Assembly: GCA_027021385.1 (NCBI GenBank) | Contig: JALUUL010000055.1 | Coordinates: 1-36,453, forward strand | Reading direction: 5' to 3' | Length of the DNA: 36,453 nt | Source of the DNA: Planctomycetota bacterium | GTDB taxonomy: Bacteria; Planctomycetota; UBA1135; GCA-002748355 | Part shown: piece by piece, positions 2,718-33,603 of the stretch | How positions within the stretch are numbered: position 1 is the stretch's first letter | Layout of the letters: every line of letters begins with the position of its first letter | Program-made: the position numbers and the translations under genes | The notes under the pieces: model-generated | Told to the model about the DNA's origin: nothing | What the model saw: the letters and a program-made list of their open reading frames with translations, nothing else | Database searches by the model: none

Positions 2718-4342
<1,625 letters not shown>

Positions 4343-4346
<4 letters not shown>

Positions 4347-7477: not shown

Positions 7478-9841
7478 ATGATCCCCGATCCGATGCCGCT
7501 CCCTCCCCGATTTCCCCTGCCTGCCCGATTCCTCACGGCAGGAGCTGCGTTCCTGCTCGGAATACTTCCGGCCTGTGGAGGCGGATCCGCCGGCTCCGCT
7601 CCCGCCCCGGGTTCAGGCGGAGGGCCTGCCCTCAAGAAACCCGGGAACCGATCGGTCCCCGCGCCCACCGCCGCCCGGGGCCCCCGTCCCTGGAAACCCG
7701 CCCCGACTCCACGACCCGACGGCCCGCCGCCCGCCATTCCCGGCCCCCTACCCTTCGGCCTCCCCTACCGGATCCCGGTCAAGGGGCTCAAGCTCCCGAT
7801 CGACAGGGGGAACCCCGCCGCCGTCAAACTCGCCCGCGCGTTCCCGAAGCTGCGCTTCGCGAGTCCGCTCTACCTGACGGCAGCCCCCGACGGCCGCGAC
7901 CGGGTCTACGTCGTCGAGAAGGCGGGCCGGATCCTGATCTTCAAGAACACGGACGCGGTGACGACCTCGACCGTCTTCCTCGACATCCGGAACAAGGTCT
8001 ACCCCTACGGGGAGCGGGGTCTCCTCGGACTGGCCTTCGACCCGGACTATGCGAAGACCGGAATTTTCTACGTCTACTATTCGACTCCGGGAAGACACCA
8101 CTCGATCGTCGCCCGCTACAAGGTCTCGGCGACGAATCCGGACCTCGCGGATCCGAACAGCGAGGAGATCCTGATCCGGCTGACCCAGCCCTACGGCAAC
8201 CACAACGGCGGCATGATCGCCTTCGGTCCGGACAAGATGCTCTACATCGCGTTCGGGGATGGGGGGTCGGGCGGAGACCCGAAAGACAACGGACAGTTCC
8301 TGGGCAACTTCTTCTCGACGATCCTCAGGATCGACCCCCACGGGGTGAAGACCTACCGGATCCCCCCGGACAACCCCTTCAAGGGCAACAAGAAGGGCTG
8401 GAAAGAGGAGATCTGGGCCTACGGGCTCAGGAACCCCTGGCGCTTCTCCTTCGACCGCCTGACGAAGGACCTCTGGTGCGCGGACGTCGGCCAAGGGGCG
8501 ATCGAGGAGATCGACCTCATCGTCAAGGGTGGGAACTACGGCTGGAGGCTCTACGAGGGGACGCGCAAGTACAGGACCACGAAGAGAACCCCGCCCGGCC
8601 CGCCGATCCCCCCGATCTTCGAGTACGACCATCGTATCGGACGCTCGATCACCGGCGGCTACGTCTACAGGGGTAGGAGCGCCCAGAATCTCCGGGGCGC
8701 CTATGTCTACGGGGATTACGTCGTCGGACAGGTCTGGGCCCTGCTCTACGACCGCAAGAGCCGCAAGGTTCTCTCGAACACCAGGATCGGCAGGGTGCCC
8801 TCGGTCGCCTCCTTCGGGGAAGACCGGGACGGGGAACTCTTCGCGATCTCACTCGGCGGATCCATCTTCCGCTTCCTGGACACGATCCCCGGCAACGGGC
8901 AGATCCCTGGAAAGCTTTCGGCGACGGGTCTCTTCGAGAATCTCGCACCGCTCAGACCCTCCCCGGGAATCCTCGAGTTCGAGGTCTCGAGCCGCCTCTG
9001 GTCCGACGGCGCGGTCAAGAAGCGCTTCCTCGCCCTCCCTGGTCTCGCCCGGATCGGATTCCGCGAGAAGGAGCCCTGGTCCTTCCCGATCGGAACGGTC
9101 CTCGTCAAGCACTTCGAGATCGACACCGGAGGGAAGAACCTGACGAAGCTCGAGACGAGGGTCCTCGTCCACGAGAAGCAGGGCTGGGCAGGATACACCT
9201 ATATCTGGAACGCCGCGGGAACCGAGGCCTACCTCAGTCTCACCCCGAAGACGGCCGCCCTGAAGGTCAGGGATCCGAAGGCGCCCGGGGGATTCCGCAA
9301 CCAGACCTGGGACTTCCCCGGATCGATGCAGTGTCTCCAGTGCCACACGAGGGCCACGGGCTGGGTCGTCGGCCCCTCGACCGCCCAGCTCAATCGCGAT
9401 CGTCTCTTCGGGACCGTGGTCGACAACCAGATCCGCGCATGGAACCACATCGGAGTCTTCGACCGGAAGGCCCCGAATCCGACGCGGCTGCCGGCGCTCC
9501 CCTCCCCGACCGATCCCAAGGTTCCGCTCGAAAAACGGGTGCGCTCCTACCTCCACGCCAACTGCGCGCACTGCCACAGGCCCGGGGGACCCGCCCCGGG
9601 GAGGATCGACCTGCGTTACGACACCCCGCTCAGCGCGACCCGTTTGATCGAGGTCCCTCCGGAACACGGGAGCTTCGGAATCAAGGGGGCCCGCCGGATC
9701 GCAAAGGGGAGCAAGGAGCGGAGCATCCTCTGGCGGAGGATGCTCCGGCTCGATCAGGAACGGATGCCGCCGCTCGGCAGCCGGGTGATCGACACCGAGG
9801 CGGTGCGGATGATCGGCACCTGGATCGACGGGCTCCGTTGA
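7478..9841 (+). CDS. Exported lipoprotein: sorbosone/glucose dehydrogenase-like propeller plus diheme-type C-terminus
   Basis: A 787-residue protein with a lipoprotein signal peptide (LPAC lipobox near residue 33) and a Gly/Pro/Ala-rich linker to about residue 100. The next ~370 residues form a glucose/sorbosone dehydrogenase-type six-bladed propeller (GERGLLGLAFDPDY, NHNGGMIAFGPD, AYGLRNPWRFSFD, GGNYGWRLYEG). This family oxidises sugars or alcohols with PQQ. The C-terminal part has two c-type heme motifs, CLQCH (619-623) and CAHCH (696-700), as in SO2930-like diheme proteins. A periplasmic dehydrogenase that passes electrons straight to its own hemes is likely. The substrate is unknown. AGGA at 7466-7469 precedes the ATG. 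It follows the NuoF-like gene by 63 bases and could be co-transcribed, though its role looks unrelated. It is convergent with the selenoprotein gene, 6 bases away. Confidence 0.85.
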   Translation: MIPDPMPLPPRFPLPARFLTAGAAFLLGILPACGGGSAGSAPAPGSGGGPALKKPGNRSVPAPTAARGPRPWKPAPTPRPDGPPPAIPGPLPFGLPYRIPVKGLKLPIDRGNPAAVKLARAFPKLRFASPLYLTAAPDGRDRVYVVEKAGRILIFKNTDAVTTSTVFLDIRNKVYPYGERGLLGLAFDPDYAKTGIFYVYYSTPGRHHSIVARYKVSATNPDLADPNSEEILIRLTQPYGNHNGGMIAFGPDKMLYIAFGDGGSGGDPKDNGQFLGNFFSTILRIDPHGVKTYRIPPDNPFKGNKKGWKEEIWAYGLRNPWRFSFDRLTKDLWCADVGQGAIEEIDLIVKGGNYGWRLYEGTRKYRTTKRTPPGPPIPPIFEYDHRIGRSITGGYVYRGRSAQNLRGAYVYGDYVVGQVWALLYDRKSRKVLSNTRIGRVPSVASFGEDRDGELFAISLGGSIFRFLDTIPGNGQIPGKLSATGLFENLAPLRPSPGILEFEVSSRLWSDGAVKKRFLALPGLARIGFREKEPWSFPIGTVLVKHFEIDTGGKNLTKLETRVLVHEKQGWAGYTYIWNAAGTEAYLSLTPKTAALKVRDPKAPGGFRNQTWDFPGSMQCLQCHTRATGWVVGPSTAQLNRDRLFGTVVDNQIRAWNHIGVFDRKAPNPTRLPALPSPTDPKVPLEKRVRSYLHANCAHCHRPGGPAPGRIDLRYDTPLSATRLIEVPPEHGSFGIKGARRIAKGSKERSILWRRMLRLDQERMPPLGSRVIDTEAVRMIGTWIDGLR

Positions 9842-9847
9842 GGCCGG

Positions 9848-10945
9848 TCAGCCGCCTTGCTTCCGGCGGCCTTCGTGCTCCTCTTCCTCCTCACCTTCCT
9901 CGTCGCTGTCCCCGATCTTCGACTCCAGCTTCTCGATCACGGGCTTCAGGTAGCGGCCATACATCGGGACCTTCTTCCGGAAGCTCTCGAGGGTATCGAG
10001 GACCTTTTCCCGAAACTTCGCGTCTCCGCTTTCGAGAGCCGCGCTTCCGAGCTGCACCATGTATCCGATCCCGGACCTGTCGCTCGGGACCATTCCCTTC
10101 CGGAACAGATCCACGACGGTCTCCCGGTAGGCCTTCATGATCTCCGTCCGCGGCTTCCCGCGGAGGGCCCGGAGCCTCCGGTTCAGCTCCCCGGCTACCT
10201 CCTTGTCGACGATCTTCTGCTCGGCCTTCTCCCGATCCTCCTCGGACATCGAATCGCCGAGGGCGTCGAGGCGGTCGCGAGCGTCCTTCGGATCGAAGCC
10301 GCCCATCTCGAGATCGAGGAGCAGGAGCCGGACACGGGCTTTTCCATCGCCCTTGGCCGCGGCCTCACGGAGCCGGAGGTACTCCCGGGCCTTCTCGGCG
10401 GATTTCGTGAAACCCTCGAGCGAACGCGGCCCCCTATGCACGGCGAGGACCTTGCCCTCGGCATCCATGAACATCAGGGTCGGAAACCCTGTCCCTCCCT
10501 TCTCCTTCAGAAGGTTCGGGTAGGGCTCATCCTCGACATGCGAAGTGTTGTGCAGGAAGAGGACGTAGTCCTTGCCCCATTCGACGAAATCGTCTTTGGA
10601 GAGCACACGGCTCTCCAGCATCTTGCAGGGGCCTCACGGAGCGTAGGAACGCGTGAAGTAGGTGAAGATCATCCTGTTCGTCTTCTTCGCGAGGGCGCGC
10701 GCCTTGTCGTAGTCCGTGATCCAGCCTCCCTTCGCGATCCATTCCAGTGCGAGCTTCTTCTCGCGGCGCTTGATCAACTCCTCCTGGCTCGGCACCGAGC
10801 GCTTCTGCGGCGTCACCTTCCGCATCTTCGCTGCCGCGGGGGCCCGTCTCTTCGAGACTCCCTGGGCCGGAAGGAGAGGTGCCCCGCAAAGTGCGAGGAC
10901 CGATCCGGCCGCCAGGATCCCGGGAAGGATGGTCGAGTTCTTCAT
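9848..10945 (-). CDS. Exported thioredoxin-like selenoprotein with UGPC motif (TGA at 10634-10636 read as Sec104)
   Basis: Two open frames in the same phase are separated only by one TGA (10636-10634). Read through, they give a 365-residue protein starting at ATG 10945, which has a strong ribosome binding site (GAGGAG, 5 bases upstream). Residues 1-29 are a signal peptide, followed by a basic linker. A thioredoxin fold begins near residue 67 (ALEWIAKGGWITDYDKA, FTYFTRSYAP). The TGA falls exactly at the first position of the redox motif, giving SYAP-U-GPCK. The fold continues with KDDFVEWGKDYVLF and the cis-proline loop GGTGFPTLMF. The remaining ~150 residues are helical and charged, with an acidic C-terminal tail. 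Without readthrough, the first part lacks the active site and the second lacks export and a start with a ribosome binding site. A bSECIS-like hairpin follows the TGA. The role is presumably thiol-disulfide or peroxide chemistry in the periplasm. Confidence 0.85.
10597..10617 (-). promoter_or_regulatory. Candidate bacterial SECIS hairpin
   Basis: In the mRNA sense the sequence is UGGAGAGC, loop CGUGU, GCUCUCCA: a perfect 8-bp stem with a 5-base loop. The stem starts 16 bases after the UGA and the apical loop 24 bases after it. Bacterial SECIS elements lie within the coding sequence just after the UGA, with the loop about 16-37 bases away and a G among its first two bases. This hairpin meets all of these. 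It is the main support for Sec decoding at 10634-10636. Confidence 0.8.
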
Positions 10946-11113
10946 GCAATCTCCTCTAGATCGAATCGAATGTGAGGATCGGATCCTCCTGGAAGAACGC
11001 CTCCTTTGCCAGGGCGTCTTCTCTCTTCGAGGAGGATTTCCCCCTGGAGGCGGCCCTCGGGGGGGGATAGAACGGCGGGCCTTCATGGAACGCGGATCGG
11101 AGTTCGGCGCAGG

Positions 11114-13372
11114 ATGAGGGTCGTCAGTATCGGCGGAGGGCCCGCGGGCCTCTACGCCTGTCTTCTGCTCAAGAAGAGATGGCCGGACGCGGAGATCCGA
11201 CTCCATGAACGGAACCGTCACGACGACACCTTCGGCTGGGGAGTCGTCTTCTCCGACGAGACGCTCGAGAATTTCGAGGCGGCCGATCCGGAGACCTACG
11301 CGGAGATCCGGGCCCGCATGATCCACTGGGACGCGATCGAAACCCACTTCGCGGGGACGACGAGGGTCTCGACCGGGCACGGCTTCTCCGGCCTCTCGAG
11401 AAAACGACTCCTCCTGATCCTCCAGGAACGCTGCCGGGAACTCGGAGTCGAACTCGTGTTCGAGTCCGAGATCGACCGGATCGAGGATGTCGGGGAAGCG
11501 GATCTCGTCCTCGGAGCGGACGGGATCAACTCCAGGGTGCGCGAAATCCACGCCGAGGTCTTCCGCCCGAGCCTCGACTGGCGGAAGTGCAAGTTCGCCT
11601 GGTTCGGAACCGATTTCCGCCTGGAAAGGTTCACGTTCCACTTCAAGGAGAACGAACACGGCCTCTTCCAGGTCCATGCCTACCCCTTCGAGGAGGGCAT
11701 GAGCACCTGGATCGTCGAGTGCAGGGAGGAGACCTGGAAGCGAGCGGGCCTCGATCGCGCGGGCGAGGAGGAATCGGTCGCGTACTGCAAGGAGCTGTTC
11801 GAGGAGGAACTCCGGGGACACGACCTCCTCACGAACCGCTCGGTCTGGCGCACCTTCCCGACGGTCCGGAACGAACGCTGGCACCACGGCAATCTCGTAC
11901 TTCTCGGAGACGCCGCCCACACCGCCCATTTCTCGATCGGATCCGGCACCAAGCTCGCGATGGAGGACGCGATCGCCCTCGACGCCGCCCTGGCCCGCCT
12001 CGGGGAGACGGGGATCGAGGAGGCCCTGGCGGCCTACCAGGAATCCCGCCGGATCGACGCCCTCAAGCTGCAGAAGACCGCCCAGACCAGCCTCGAGTGG
12101 TTCGAGAACTCTGCCCGCTATCTCCGGCAGGATCCCGTGACCTTCAACTTCAACCTGATGACCCGGAGCAAGAGGATCACCTACGACAACCTCTCCCTCA
12201 GGGATCCGGATCTCGTCACGGAGGTCCGCCGGCGCTTCGCCGAGGCGGCGGGTCTCGTCCCCGGGGACGGGGAGGAACCTCCTCCCCCGATCTTCGTCCC
12301 CTTCGAGTTCGGAGGGCTCCGTGTCGAGAACCGAATCGTCGTGTCGCCGATGTGCATGTATTCGGCGGAGGAGGGGAAGGTCGGGGACTGGCATCTCGTC
12401 CACCTGGGAAGCCGCGCGATCGGCGGCGCCGGTCTCGTCATGACCGAGATGACCGACGTCGAACCCGAGGGGAGGATCACGAGGGGTTGCGCGGGCCTCT
12501 GGACGGACGAGCATCGCGAAGCATGGGCGCGCATCGTCGATTTCGTGCACGCGCATACGAGGGCCAAGATCGGGATCCAGCTCGCCCACGCCGGCCGGAA
12601 GGGTTCGATGCGCCACGGTTGGGATTTCCGGGACCGGCCGGCTCCCCCCGCAGAGGGGGGATGGCGGACCCTGGCGCCTTCCCCCCTCCCCTTCGAGAAG
12701 GGCTGGCCCGTTCCGAAGGAAATGGACGAGACCGACATGGCGCGCGTCCGCGAGGCCTTCGTCCGCGCGGCCGCCCGGGCCGCCGAAGCCGGCTTCGACC
12801 TCTGCGAACTCCACATGGCGCACGGCTATCTCCTTTCGAGCTTCCTCTCGCCCCTCTCCAATCGACGGAGCGATCGCTATGGAGGGAGCCTGGAGAACCG
12901 GATGCGGTGGCCCCTCGAGGTCTACGAGGCCGTCCGGAAGACCTGGCCCGAAGACCGGCCGCTGACCGTGAGGATCTCCGCCACGGACTGGATGGAGCCC
13001 GAGGGCTTCACCTGCGAGGAAGCCGTGATCTTCGCCGGGGAACTGAAGGAGCGCGGATGTCCGTTGATCGACGTATCGACCGCGGGAAACGATCCGGGAT
13101 CCGTCCCCGAATACGGGAGGATGTACCAGGTCCCCTTCGCCGAACGGATCCGCCACGAGGCCGGGATCCCGGTCATGGCCGTCGGCGCCATCCTCGGGAC
13201 CGATCACGGCAACACGATCCTGGCGGCGGGCCGGGCGGACCTCGTCTGCATGGCCCGCCCCCACCTCGGGAACCCCTATCTCGGCCTCCACGCCGCCGCC
13301 CGCTACGGCCTCGGAGCATCCCTCTGGCCTCCCCAGTATCTCGCGGGGCTGGAGCGCCCCGACCTGTCCTGA
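11114..13372 (+). CDS. FAD monooxygenase fused to Old Yellow Enzyme: 2-aminobenzoyl-CoA monooxygenase/reductase or salicylyl-CoA 5-hydroxylase type
   Basis: A 752-residue two-domain flavoprotein. Residues 1 to about 385 are a class A FAD monooxygenase: dinucleotide motif GGGPAG (7-12), the LGADGINSRVR motif, and GDAAHT near residue 270. From about residue 394 it is an Old Yellow Enzyme/NADH:flavin oxidoreductase barrel (VSPMCMYS, IQLAHAGRKG, HMAHGYLLSSFLSP, NRRSDRYGGSLENR). This fusion is known from 2-aminobenzoyl-CoA monooxygenase/reductase, which hydroxylates and then reduces the ring of anthraniloyl-CoA, and from proteins annotated as salicylyl-CoA 5-hydroxylase. Both act on CoA esters of substituted benzoates, which fits the box/bcr surroundings. 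ATG 11114 is chosen because the dinucleotide fold begins right after it. The gene is divergent from the selenoprotein across 168 bases that must hold both promoters. Which substrate is used cannot be read from sequence. Confidence 0.88.
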   Translation: MRVVSIGGGPAGLYACLLLKKRWPDAEIRLHERNRHDDTFGWGVVFSDETLENFEAADPETYAEIRARMIHWDAIETHFAGTTRVSTGHGFSGLSRKRLLLILQERCRELGVELVFESEIDRIEDVGEADLVLGADGINSRVREIHAEVFRPSLDWRKCKFAWFGTDFRLERFTFHFKENEHGLFQVHAYPFEEGMSTWIVECREETWKRAGLDRAGEEESVAYCKELFEEELRGHDLLTNRSVWRTFPTVRNERWHHGNLVLLGDAAHTAHFSIGSGTKLAMEDAIALDAALARLGETGIEEALAAYQESRRIDALKLQKTAQTSLEWFENSARYLRQDPVTFNFNLMTRSKRITYDNLSLRDPDLVTEVRRRFAEAAGLVPGDGEEPPPPIFVPFEFGGLRVENRIVVSPMCMYSAEEGKVGDWHLVHLGSRAIGGAGLVMTEMTDVEPEGRITRGCAGLWTDEHREAWARIVDFVHAHTRAKIGIQLAHAGRKGSMRHGWDFRDRPAPPAEGGWRTLAPSPLPFEKGWPVPKEMDETDMARVREAFVRAAARAAEAGFDLCELHMAHGYLLSSFLSPLSNRRSDRYGGSLENRMRWPLEVYEAVRKTWPEDRPLTVRISATDWMEPEGFTCEEAVIFAGELKERGCPLIDVSTAGNDPGSVPEYGRMYQVPFAERIRHEAGIPVMAVGAILGTDHGNTILAAGRADLVCMARPHLGNPYLGLHAAARYGLGASLWPPQYLAGLERPDLS

Positions 13373-13444: not shown

Positions 13445-13870
13445 CTGCTGATCGTCACCGATAGAATCCGCATCCCCTTGCGGGAACTCGAATTCCGTTT
13501 CGTGAGAAGCTCCGGGCCCGGCGGCCAGAACGTGAACAAGGTCGCGACCAAGGCCCTTCTGCGCTGGAAGGTCGCGGAAAGCCCTTCCCTTTCCGCCGCG
13601 GTCAGGAAGAGGTTCCTCGAGCGCTTCGGCCGGCGGATCGACAAGGCCGGAATCCTCGAACTCAGGAGCCAGCGCTTCCGCGACCGTGGCCGGAACGTCG
13701 CCGACTGCCTCGAACGCCTGCGCGCGATGCTCCTCGAGGTCGCCACGCCTCCGAAGAAGCGCGTTCCGACACGCCCGACGCGGGGCTCCCAGGAGCGGCG
13801 CCTCCAGGGGAAACAGAAGCGGTCCCGAATCAAGAAACTGCGCCGCCGGCCGGGGAGCGAGGACGCATGA
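13445..13870 (+). CDS. arfB: ArfB-type peptidyl-tRNA hydrolase (ribosome rescue), apparent CTG start
   Basis: A class-I release-factor-like protein of about 141 residues that hydrolyses peptidyl-tRNA on stalled ribosomes. It has the catalytic GGQ in SSGPGGQNVNK (residues 26-28, as in E. coli ArfB) and the basic C-terminal tail (RLQGKQKRSRIKKLRRR) that enters the mRNA channel. The start is unusual. The conserved N-terminal strand is encoded upstream of the first TTG (13478), and no ATG, GTG or TTG occurs in frame between the preceding gene's stop (13370-13372) and that TTG. Two CTG codons at 13445 and 13448 follow GGAGGG (13435-13440) at normal spacing. CTG 13445 gives exactly the family's usual N-terminal length. 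The stop overlaps the next start (ATGA). Confidence 0.85.
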   Translation: MLIVTDRIRIPLRELEFRFVRSSGPGGQNVNKVATKALLRWKVAESPSLSAAVRKRFLERFGRRIDKAGILELRSQRFRDRGRNVADCLERLRAMLLEVATPPKKRVPTRPTRGSQERRLQGKQKRSRIKKLRRRPGSEDA

Positions 13871-30648: not shown

Positions 30649-31392
30649 TCATGCGATCAACTGTCCGCCGTCCACTCGAATGACCTGACCGGTGATGTGT
30701 TTCGACAGGTCCGAAACCAGGAAGAGGCAGAGGGCCGCCACGTCCTCGGGTTCGGCGATCCTACCCAGGACGCTCTCCGATTCCGCCTTCTCGAGGACCT
30801 CGGCCGGCAGCTCCTCCGCCATCCTCGTCCGCACCATGCCCGGGGCGACGAGGTTCACCCGGATCCCGAAGCGGCCCAGCTCGCGCGCGGCCGTCTTTCC
30901 GAACCCGATCAGCCCCGCCTTCGAGGCGGCGTAGTTCGCCTGCCCGAACTTCCCGCGCTCCCCGTTGATCGAGGTCGTCAGAACGATCGAGCCGCCCCCG
31001 GCCGCCCGCATCCTCGGGACGGCTTCCTTGACGATCAGGAAGGCGGACTCGAGATTGACGCGCAGGACCCGCTCCCAGTCCTCTGTGTCCATCTTCCAGA
31101 GCACGGCGTCCCGCGTGATCCCGACGCAGTGCACGCAGAGATCCAGCCCCCCCATCTCCTCGTCGAGGCGGCGGAAGCAGGCCGCGACGTCTCCGGGATC
31201 GGACCCGTCCCCCTCGATCCCCAAGGTCCCCTCGACCGCCTCCGAACCCGGGAGATCCAGGACGGCGACCTCCGCCCCGGCCGCCAGGAGCGAACCGACG
31301 ACGGCGCGCCCGATCCCCCCGGCGCCCCCGGCGACGAGGGCGCGCCGGCCCACGAGGCTCAACGGGCCGGGACTCCCGGTGAAGAGCGTCAT
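30649..31392 (-). CDS. Short-chain dehydrogenase/reductase (FabG-like) in the bcr operon
   Basis: A 247-residue classical SDR: cofactor loop GGAGGIG (22-28), Asn113, and the catalytic Ser141, Tyr154 and Lys158 (YAASK). The C-terminal VDGGQ is typical of FabG/PhaB-type enzymes acting on 3-hydroxyacyl or 3-oxoacyl thioesters. Its ATG overlaps the bcrD stop by four bases and has GGAGGAG upstream, so it is made with benzoyl-CoA reductase. I infer that it oxidises a hydroxyacyl-CoA intermediate after ring reduction and hydration. It could be a functional substitute for the zinc-type 6-hydroxycyclohexenecarbonyl-CoA dehydrogenase Had, or a BadH-like 2-hydroxycyclohexanecarboxyl-CoA dehydrogenase. 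The usual NAG motif reads CVG at about 89-91. Confidence 0.85.
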   Translation of the reverse strand: MTLFTGSPGPLSLVGRRALVAGGAGGIGRAVVGSLLAAGAEVAVLDLPGSEAVEGTLGIEGDGSDPGDVAACFRRLDEEMGGLDLCVHCVGITRDAVLWKMDTEDWERVLRVNLESAFLIVKEAVPRMRAAGGGSIVLTTSINGERGKFGQANYAASKAGLIGFGKTAARELGRFGIRVNLVAPGMVRTRMAEELPAEVLEKAESESVLGRIAEPEDVAALCLFLVSDLSKHITGQVIRVDGGQLIA

Positions 31393-32264
31393 GCCCCCGC
31401 TCCTCCGAGTCCGAGACCGATCCCCTTGGCCGCGAGCTTCCGGGCGCGGTAGCCCCCCCAGAGCGCCGCGCCGATCGCACCGGCAAGCATCGAATGCTCA
31501 TGGCTGCGGATCTCGAGCTTCAGCCCCTGGGACTCCCCGGCCTCCCGGATCGCCTGGAGCAGGCCGACGTCCGCGGCCAGTCCCCCGGTCACGAGAGCGA
31601 CCTTCTTGATCCCGATCGAGTTCAGGAGGCGGAGGTAGCGCCCGGCCATCGACTGGTGGATCCCCTTGATGATGTCCGGGGTCGGGATGCCCCGCGAGAC
31701 CATGTTGATGACGTCCGTCTCCGCCAGAACCGCGCAGATCGACGAACATTGCTCGGGGTTCTGGGCCTGGAGCGAGAGCGGGCCGATCTCATCGATCGTG
31801 ATGCCGAGATAGCGGCTGATGTTCTCGAGGAACTGCCCCGACCCCGAGGCGCACTGGCTCGTCATCCGATACCCCAGGACCTTGGCCTTCTCGTCCATCT
31901 TGACCGCGCGGGCGTGCAGGCCTCCGACGTCCAGGACGGCCTCGGCCTCGGGATCCATCCAGCGCCCTCCCCGGGCGTGCGTCGTCATGCCGTAGAAGTG
32001 GCCGGTGCGGAACGGTACTCCTTCCCCTTCCCCCGTCGTCGCGACGTAGGCGAGCCGGTCCCTGCGGACCGAGGCCTCCGACAGGGCATGTTCGAAGAGG
32101 TCGGCGGCGACCTGGTGGGGATCCCGCTTGCGGATGCGTTCTCCCCGCCCGAAGAGGAGGTCCGCCCCCTTCTCTCCGCGATCCTCCATGACCGCGACCT
32201 TGACGGCCGAGGAGCCGATGTCGATCCCGGCGACGAGCAGAGTCTCCATGTTCGGATTCGTCAT
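31389..32264 (-). CDS. bcrD: Benzoyl-CoA reductase subunit D (ATPase/activator, BcrD/BadG)
   Basis: A 291-residue ASKHA-fold ATPase (N-terminal GIDIGSSAVKVAVM, LDVGGLHARAV). It has the two cysteine motifs that hold the [4Fe-4S] cluster bridging the A and D subunits: SQCASGSGQFLE and CSSICAVLAETD. With BcrA it forms the module that couples ATP hydrolysis to transfer of low-potential electrons to the BcrBC ring-reducing module. Length and motifs match BcrD/BadG. AAGGAA 7 bases before ATG 32264 supports the start. It lies 26 bases after bcrA and overlaps the SDR gene. Confidence 0.93.
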   Translation of the reverse strand: MTNPNMETLLVAGIDIGSSAVKVAVMEDRGEKGADLLFGRGERIRKRDPHQVAADLFEHALSEASVRRDRLAYVATTGEGEGVPFRTGHFYGMTTHARGGRWMDPEAEAVLDVGGLHARAVKMDEKAKVLGYRMTSQCASGSGQFLENISRYLGITIDEIGPLSLQAQNPEQCSSICAVLAETDVINMVSRGIPTPDIIKGIHQSMAGRYLRLLNSIGIKKVALVTGGLAADVGLLQAIREAGESQGLKLEIRSHEHSMLAGAIGAALWGGYRARKLAAKGIGLGLGGAGA

Positions 32265-32289
32265 TTCGAGTTTCCTTGTCGGCAGGAGG

Positions 32290-33603
32290 TCAGGCGGCGC
32301 GCGTCCGCCGGTGGTCGCGCCAGCAGAAGAGGGCGGCCCCGAGCGCCCCGGTGTAGATCGAGTCGGGGGAGATGTTGATCGTCTTGTCCCCGTAGTTCTC
32401 CCGGACGAGTTCGCGAAGCGCGTTCACGGCGGCCTCGTTCTTGGCGACCCCGCCCGTGAACGTGAACTCGTCCTCGATCCCGCCCGAGCGGGCGAGCAGG
32501 GACATGGCCCGAAGGATGATCGCGCGATGCAGGCCGGCGAGGATGTCCTCGCGCTTCTCGCCCAGGGACAGCCGCTCCCGGAGTTCCGCGCCGGCGAAGA
32601 CCGTGCAGGTCGAATTGATCTTGACCGGCCTGTTCGACTCGCAGGCCAAAGGGCCGAGTTCATGCAGGCCGAGATTCATCTCGTCGGCGATGTATCCGAG
32701 ATAGCGCCCGCACCCCGCCGCGCAGCGGTCGTTCATCTGGAACGAGGTCACGATGCCGTTCTCGTCCACCTGGATGGCCTTCGTGTCCTGGCCCCCGATG
32801 TCGAGCACCGTCCTCGTCCCCGGGAACATCGCGTGGGCGCCGAGGCCGTGGCAGAGGATCTCCGAACGGATGCTCTCCTTCGGGAAGGGAAGGGTCTGCC
32901 TTCCGTAACCCGTGCCGACCGATCCCCCCTCGATCATTTCGAGTTCGCGGACGGCGGCGATGGCATCGCCCAGGGCCTCGGGCGCCCCCTCGAGGTCCGC
33001 GAGGGCGGCCGAGGCGTGGGCCGCGAAGGCGTCCTCCGCCGCGGGCATGTTCTCGACCTCGAGGATGGCCTTGTCGTAGAGCCCCACGAGGAGGTCGTAG
33101 GGGACCCCCCGCCCCCGGGCCTCGCTCTCCGCGAGGCTCAGGTAGCGGCTCCCGGCGAGATCGCGGAAGAAATCGCTCTTGCGGCTCGAGCCCTCGGCAT
33201 AGAGCTCCGAGACCTCCTCGTTCATCGTGGAGAGGACGGTGTCCGCCGCGAGCACGACCGCCGGATCCTCCTTGCGCTCGTCCAGGATCTTCCGGATCGT
33301 CACGCAGAGGTTGTCGAGCTGGGCCCTGTACTGCTTCTCCCGGAACCTAAGTTCGAGGGCCTTCAGGAGTCTCCCGCACTCCTCCTCCCCGACGCCCCGT
33401 CCCTTGAGATCCCGCTCGATCAGCCCGAAACGGGCGTCTATCAGGGCCTCCCCGGACGCCACCTCGCAGGCGACCTCGTAGTTGCTGCGGCTGTTCGTGA
33501 TGCCGCGGCCGAGGATCCGCCCCTCCTCGTCGAGGACGACGGACTTGGTCGTCGTCGACCCCAGATCGATTCCGACGAAATACCGGAGACTCGTCATGCT
33601 CAC
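32290..33603 (-). CDS. bcrA: Benzoyl-CoA reductase subunit A (ATPase/activator, BcrA/BadF)
   Basis: A 437-residue ASKHA ATPase, the larger partner of BcrD and of the same length as Thauera BcrA. It has the N-terminal phosphate loop [29 protein letters not shown], and the cluster cysteines in [12 protein letters not shown] and [12 protein letters not shown]. It also has the insert of about 130 residues (roughly 55-220) that distinguishes A from D subunits. The reading frame can start at GTG 33603, which overlaps the bcrB stop as GTGA, or at ATG 33597 two codons later; the ATG is equally plausible. It is required for the oxygen-sensitive ATP-dependent reduction of benzoyl-CoA to the 1,5-diene. 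Confidence 0.94.

Follow-up and report, generated by a model that had tools for sequence, protein, structure and literature searches.

A predicted selenoprotein family of likely exported thioredoxin-fold proteins with a Sec-x-x-Cys active site in Planctomycetota

Introduction

A 2026 catalogue recognises 119 families or subfamilies of prokaryotic selenoproteins (PMC13188914), and in Planctomycetota selenoproteins have been reported earlier, FdhA and FmdB being those named in the text of that work (PMC4807772). The described proteins that are closest to the gene considered here are thioredoxin-like proteins of several kinds. Two of these are selenoproteins with models of their own, viz. the Trx7/PDZ domain selenoprotein (NF041199), which like our protein is a Thioredoxin_7 selenoprotein (PMC9312934; PMC13188914), and GOS_C (NF045500), an uncharacterised marine UxxC selenoprotein whose thioredoxin-like fold it shares (PMC2398784). 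A third is the catalogue row 'Thiol:disulfide interchange protein' (PF13098, UxxC), and the others are the periplasmic disulfide reductase DsbH (NF043050; PDB 2ju5), DsbD-gamma and the chaperedoxin YbbN (CnoX), in which a thioredoxin domain is joined to TPR. YbbN is cytoplasmic and is not known to be a selenoprotein.

In the present work, we describe a gene from a 36,453-nucleotide stretch of DNA of a Planctomycetota bacterium (contig JALUUL010000055.1 of assembly GCA_027021385.1), which in its full length is referred to as the window. It is very probable that this is one gene, in which an in-frame UGA is decoded as selenocysteine (Sec) with the aid of a hairpin just 3' of it, and that the product, which is likely exported, is a thiol-disulfide oxidoreductase of the thioredoxin fold whose active site is Sec-x-x-Cys.

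This protein differs in several regards from the systems listed above. Against the DsbH model it scores 31 bits, where the cut-off is 190, and that model spans 166 positions without a helical C-terminal domain, whereas the window protein has this domain and carries Sec in place of the first Cys. Unlike DsbD, it is without membrane domains. On PF13098 it scores 18 bits, below the cut-off of 27, although the catalogue row concerned, represented by WP_011366075, is broad and was compared by its label. The Trx7/PDZ selenoprotein is named for its PDZ domain and has CxxU where UxxC is found here, and the window family reaches 18.7 bits against a cut-off of 300 for this model. GOS_C, which carries the domain label cd02973, does not appear when eight family members are scanned with E allowed up to 10, a result that assumes the presence of its model in the library and is qualified by the HMMER filters, which drop weak matches. 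The order in YbbN, with helical repeats behind a thioredoxin domain, may be comparable, and its structures (3qdn and 3qou) are the top Foldseek rows for the window protein at E of 2.4e-5 to 4.7e-5, but with TM-scores of only 0.22-0.28 and an rmsd of over 20.

None of the NCBIfam cut-offs was passed by the eight family members, and there was no match to the family in the 119-family catalogue where the rows consulted had testable models, the rows labelled by Pfam, CDD or PANTHER being compared by label (PMC13188914). A description of the family was found in no publication within the literature covered, which left out bioRxiv, most subscription journals and the selenoprotein table S9 of PMC4807772; a term search of the text of PMC12013277 gave no match. 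As far as these sources go, the protein is of a known kind, a thioredoxin-fold bacterial selenoprotein, in a form found in no catalogue, although the broad PF13098 UxxC row could include it. It adds a well-supported selenoprotein family, with a domain arrangement that falls under every NCBIfam cut-off, to a phylum for which few printed accounts of selenoproteins were found.

Results

The gene, its product and its surroundings

The positions of the gene and its features are given in Table 1. The frame 10945..9848 on the minus strand codes for 365 residues, and its sole internal stop is the TGA at 10636-10634. As the original prediction had stated, this TGA occupies the first Cys position of a CGPC motif, in the context SYAP-U-GPC; the strong ribosome binding site and the N-terminal signal peptide that it described are also found, the latter as a likely one. 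Other than the residue at 104, Cys107 is accompanied only by C20, which lies inside the likely signal peptide. The predicted mass is 41.1 kDa for the whole product and 38.5 kDa for residues 28-365.

Table 1. Features of the predicted selenoprotein gene, with positions in the window
Feature	Position	Strand	Basis
Predicted selenoprotein gene	9848..10945	-	ATG start to terminal TGA (9850-9848); full-length homology to relatives
Ribosome binding site AGAGGAG	10951..10957	-	Read from sequence, five bases 5' of ATG
Likely signal peptide, residues 1-27	10865..10945	-	Hydrophobic N-terminus; A27 and Q28 almost invariant across 49 aligned members
Thioredoxin-fold domain, residues 54-170	10436..10786	-	AlphaFold2 model; Pfam Thioredoxin_7
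Predicted selenocysteine codon UGA, residue 104	10634..10636	-	TGA in 133/152 distinct family genes
Cys107, partner to residue 104	10625..10627	-	Cys here in 133/133 TGA genes
SECIS-type hairpin	10597..10617	-	Arms 10617-10610 and 10604-10597, loop CGUGU 10609-10605
Pro155	10481..10483	-	Almost invariant across 49 aligned members
Helical C-terminal domain, residues 176-363, eight helices	9857..10420	-	Predicted structures, pLDDT 95.1 alone

A boundary of the A27/Q28 type is typical of cleavage by signal peptidase I, and the protein is likely exported, as predicted from its N-terminus alone. The Pfam family Thioredoxin_7 (PF13899) is matched with 30.6 bits, above its cut-off of 27, and 48 of the 49 aligned members match it at E up to 0.01. 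By its position, we take Pro155 to be the cis-proline of the thioredoxin fold, and in the predicted structure this fold is nearest to those of DsbH and DsbD-gamma. The helical extension, earlier put at about 150 residues, comprises about 190 in the models. Searched by itself, the helical domain gave neither a Foldseek match within an E threshold of 0.1 nor a confident PDB fold match, which does not imply a new fold.

Located singly on the minus strand and provided with a ribosome site of its own, the gene lies between a convergent glucose/sorbosone-dehydrogenase-type gene ending at 9841 and a divergent flavin-enzyme frame at 11006-13372. No sigma-70-like promoter or terminator was seen at 9600-11200, plasmid records gave no match, and a scan of 9700-11100 against Rfam at E up to 10 returned nothing of interest, which means only that no such curated family is present. 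When the frames from 80 relative loci and the window were clustered, the families present in at least three loci were the two halves of the gene, the antisense frame discussed below, and kinase-like (9), sulfatase-like (4) and sigma-factor-like (3) families, these last three being assigned by eye; no conserved gene neighbour pointing to a function was found across these loci. Elsewhere in the window, a 130-aa RF-1 domain protein is encoded at 13478-13870 (+), which resembles ribosome rescue factors of the ArfB type. Two BcrAD_BadFG ATPase-type genes lie at 31389-33603 (-) and an enoyl-CoA hydratase-family gene at 2718-4346, and the setting that these genes form is one of aromatic or acyl-CoA degradation.

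The bases of the predicted selenoprotein gene also contain, on the opposite strand, a 372-aa frame (9857-10975, +), which is open across it. Because the DNA is GC-rich, open frames alone mean little, and conservation is therefore what counts. A gene on the plus strand was rejected on the grounds that the family motif, the TGC/TGT codons for Cys and the identities by codon position all fit the minus frame. Mirror frames of this kind occur in many relatives and are a by-product of high GC.

Conservation of the TGA codon in related genes

The first search covered the source genome and 60 relatives, and matches at E up to 0.001 were found in 56 of these 61 genomes, the weak ones being mostly other thioredoxin-fold proteins without a TGA. 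In the strong-match set (63 distinct genes), the codon aligned to residue 104 was TGA in 52, TGC in 9, TGT in 1 and TAC in 1. From an alignment of 49 members a pattern was made that ends before this codon, and its use on 84,980 named species genomes yielded 110 relatives, of which the best 80 gave 81 occurrences of the motif, 79 with TGA and 2 with TGC; these best 80 are titled Planctomycetota, taxa within Planctomycetota, or just 'bacterium'. Further, of 392 genomes covered by a phylum-wide search, 112 gave matches with E no higher than 1e-15. After pooling, there were 152 distinct genes, with TGA in 133, TGC in 14, TGT in one, and TAC, AGC, TTG and TGG in one each, and as the set was gathered by likeness to the family, this share of TGA describes the genes fetched and not all homologues. 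The original prediction had called for a search for homologues with CGPC at this place; Cys is found there in 15 of the genes, and CGPC is among the forms seen in the protein database. If the codon were an ordinary stop or a product of decay, then TAA and TAG should be expected as well, and neither is present in any of the 152 genes. One relative (G085:C2) had been listed with a TAG and no TGA, which raised the possibility of UAG as a Sec codon; its aligned sequence (L201) has TGC in the Sec position, with the TAG at another site, and this candidate was rejected.

In all of the TGA genes a Cys follows at +3 from the UGA, mostly as UPPC (72) or UGPC (44), and this Cys is absent in 6 of the 19 non-TGA genes. 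In the family members L077, L078, L076 and the second copy of L010, the TGA and the partner Cys are both gone (CGTS, CPSS, CGAA); such members are perhaps no longer dithiol enzymes. A disrupted frame past the TGA had been named at the outset as a result that would speak against Sec. The frame continues there under purifying selection, with a dS of 0.67 and a dN of 0.17 in the pair most alike in this part. Synonymous substitutions predominate both before and after the TGA, pN being lower than pS past it in 1062 of 1176 pairs and before it in 1134 of 1176, most pairs being near saturation.

The source genome contains a second copy of the gene (L065 989-2137, i.e. G000:C70 around 78231-79379), with TGA at the Sec place in the context SYAP-U-GFC. 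In some relatives (L094, L132, G170:C29 and G121:C181), two or three family genes stand in tandem, each listed with its own TGA.

A SECIS-type hairpin downstream of the UGA

In the published bSECIS model, the loop has 3-9 nt and the stem 4-16 bp, a G occupies one of the first two loop positions, the distance from the UGA is 16-37 nt and the energy is at most -7.5 (PMC13188914). The hairpin of the window gene, with 8 pairs, a 5-nt loop with G in its second position, a loop start 24 nt past the UGA and an energy of -12.4 kcal/mol, lies within all of these limits, as does that of the second copy L065. Of the 133 TGA genes, 114 pass this model, 106 of them having a loop that begins at 28 or 29, and 19 fail it, although the passes are perhaps undercounted because the model as coded allows no bulges. 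Among the controls, the passes numbered 3/19 for the non-TGA homologues, 13/48, 14/51 and 10/26 for genes at their terminal TGA, TAG and TAA, respectively, and 15/133, 13/133 and 5/132 at three internal places.

When the U of the UGA is numbered 1, positions 20-28 pair with positions 32-40, and in 100 distinct TGA genes the loop carries G29 in 94 and U30 in 80. Standard pairs fill 86.8% of the pair cells in these genes, whereas shuffles give 80.8% and a shift of the partner by 1-3 bases gives 36-67%, and cells changed on both sides number 50 versus 12.5 in shuffles (0 of 500 shuffles as high), the relatedness of the genes inflating such measures. Two of the five covariation measures, viz. the pairs with a change on both sides and the further pair types, were not above the shuffles. 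Under a codon null that keeps the protein and the codon usage of each gene, the mean hairpin energy is -5.0 kcal/mol, versus -12.1 observed, and p is up to 0.05 in 79 of the 100 TGA genes versus 0 of 9 non-TGA homologues. For the window gene p is 0.013, and for the second copy L065 it is 0.10.

Selenocysteine machinery in the source genome and its relatives

The original prediction implied that the organism has the machinery for Sec, and all of its parts are present in the source genome. SelA (465.0 bits, cut-off 267.9), SelB (283.2 bits, cut-off 242.25) and SelD (349.4 bits, cut-off 125) were found, and selA adjoins selD on the same strand (G000:C58:49948-52332). The tRNA-Sec scores 78.1 bits with a cut-off of 47, and because this cut-off is lenient, the call rests on the 78 bits together with the anticodon TCA given by ARAGORN. 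SelD of the source genome has an in-frame TGA in the motif SCAGUAAK and is therefore probably itself a selenoprotein; in the order, 1 TGA is listed for nearly all of the SelD matches that exceed the cut-off. Across the 61 genomes, scores over the cut-offs were obtained for SelA in 61, for SelB in 59, for SelD in 59 and for tRNA-Sec in 58, the cut-off for the last being passed also in 5 of 14 control genomes, while 57 of the 61 genomes score 68 bits or more.

Discussion

The UGA is predicted to be read as Sec because it stands at the place of a redox-active Cys, is conserved in over 100 related genes and is then followed by a conserved hairpin. Insertion by the SelB route is a prediction strongly supported by sequence: the hairpin, at +20 to +40 counted from the U of the UGA, would be the binding site for SelB loaded with Sec-tRNA, which would place Sec at residue 104. 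Directed by its signal peptide, the protein would then cross the inner membrane, where Sec104 may attack a disulfide or an oxidised thiol of an envelope protein and Cys107 would resolve the mixed bond. The Sec-Cys bond could plausibly be re-reduced by a DsbD/CcdA-type membrane protein of the source genome, in which matches to DsbD_TM of 54.6 and 34.7 bits (cut-off 27.1) are present, and the helical C-terminal domain may hold substrates or partners. The fold, the UxxC motif with both residues kept, and these DsbD_TM matches suggest a reductase mechanism, and the least certain part of it is the direction in which electrons would flow; the electron donor and the role of the helical domain are likewise proposals.

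If the protein is a selenoprotein but not a reductase, then it could oxidise or isomerise envelope disulfides, act as a peroxidase or handle metals. The fold and the UxxC motif leave the direction of electron flow unfixed, and among uncharacterised selenoproteins there are peroxidase-like and metal-related examples (PMC13188914). However, disulfide reductases or isomerases supply the nearest folds and models, though far below family cut-offs, the partner Cys is kept throughout the TGA genes, and VKOR was not found in the source genome, where DsbB or other oxidases may be present. We regard such a function as rather unlikely, though a real contender, and prefer that of a reductase.

It may also be proposed that the TGA is a true stop, either in a decayed pseudogene or between two proteins made separately, with 103 and 257 residues. 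The original prediction held that the C-terminal piece has no plausible start; this is not borne out, since an ATG is present at 10621, four codons past the TGA, and a database entry of 257 aa (P0002) begins there. Nevertheless, a true stop is highly improbable, as 133 of the 152 genes share this TGA in the same position and none has TAA or TAG, and the active-site partner and the fold continue under selection beyond it. A thioredoxin fold cut within its active site would leave neither piece a domain, and Pfam sees no Thioredoxin_7 in the 257-aa piece. Slightly less probable still is read-through of the UGA by a near-cognate tRNA (Trp, Cys or Arg) or a general reassignment of TGA: although the inserted residue is not named by sequence alone, TGA is still a stop here, because the window gene and 48 of the 133 family TGA genes end at it, a complete Sec system and a SECIS-type hairpin are present, and Cys codons make up 15 of the 19 alternatives at the residue-104 place.

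A profile search of a 5.8-billion-protein database, confined to the candidates with the most words in common, found at least 28 proteins, and the 23 that were read comprise 15 with Cys, 1 with Thr and 7 that start past the residue-104 place, in contrast to the 133 distinct TGA genes recovered by searches of DNA. The window protein itself was obtained only as the truncated piece P0002, in agreement with the earlier expectation that gene calling would lose its N-terminus, and standard annotation seems to lose the family. On balance, we lean towards regarding these genes as an uncatalogued exported redox family across Planctomycetota, in which Sec is the rule and Cys the repeatedly arising exception, with the disulfide chemistry of the envelope run partly on selenium, and which has escaped notice because gene prediction truncates it in the active site. 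Whether envelope redox in these bacteria depends on selenium, and why Sec is kept although Cys forms arise repeatedly, are questions that can now be tested.

Members with CPAC, CGPC, CPPC and similar motifs are seen at the protein level in the database. In a quick FastTree tree built without the trait column, at least 7 changes on well-supported branches are required to explain the 11 Cys rows, and therefore Sec and Cys have been exchanged many times. Four more distant thioredoxin-like genes (L212-L215) have a TGA at the same place within another motif, one example being IFLYFGRHAPQ-U-PPC, and these perhaps represent further selenoprotein subfamilies.
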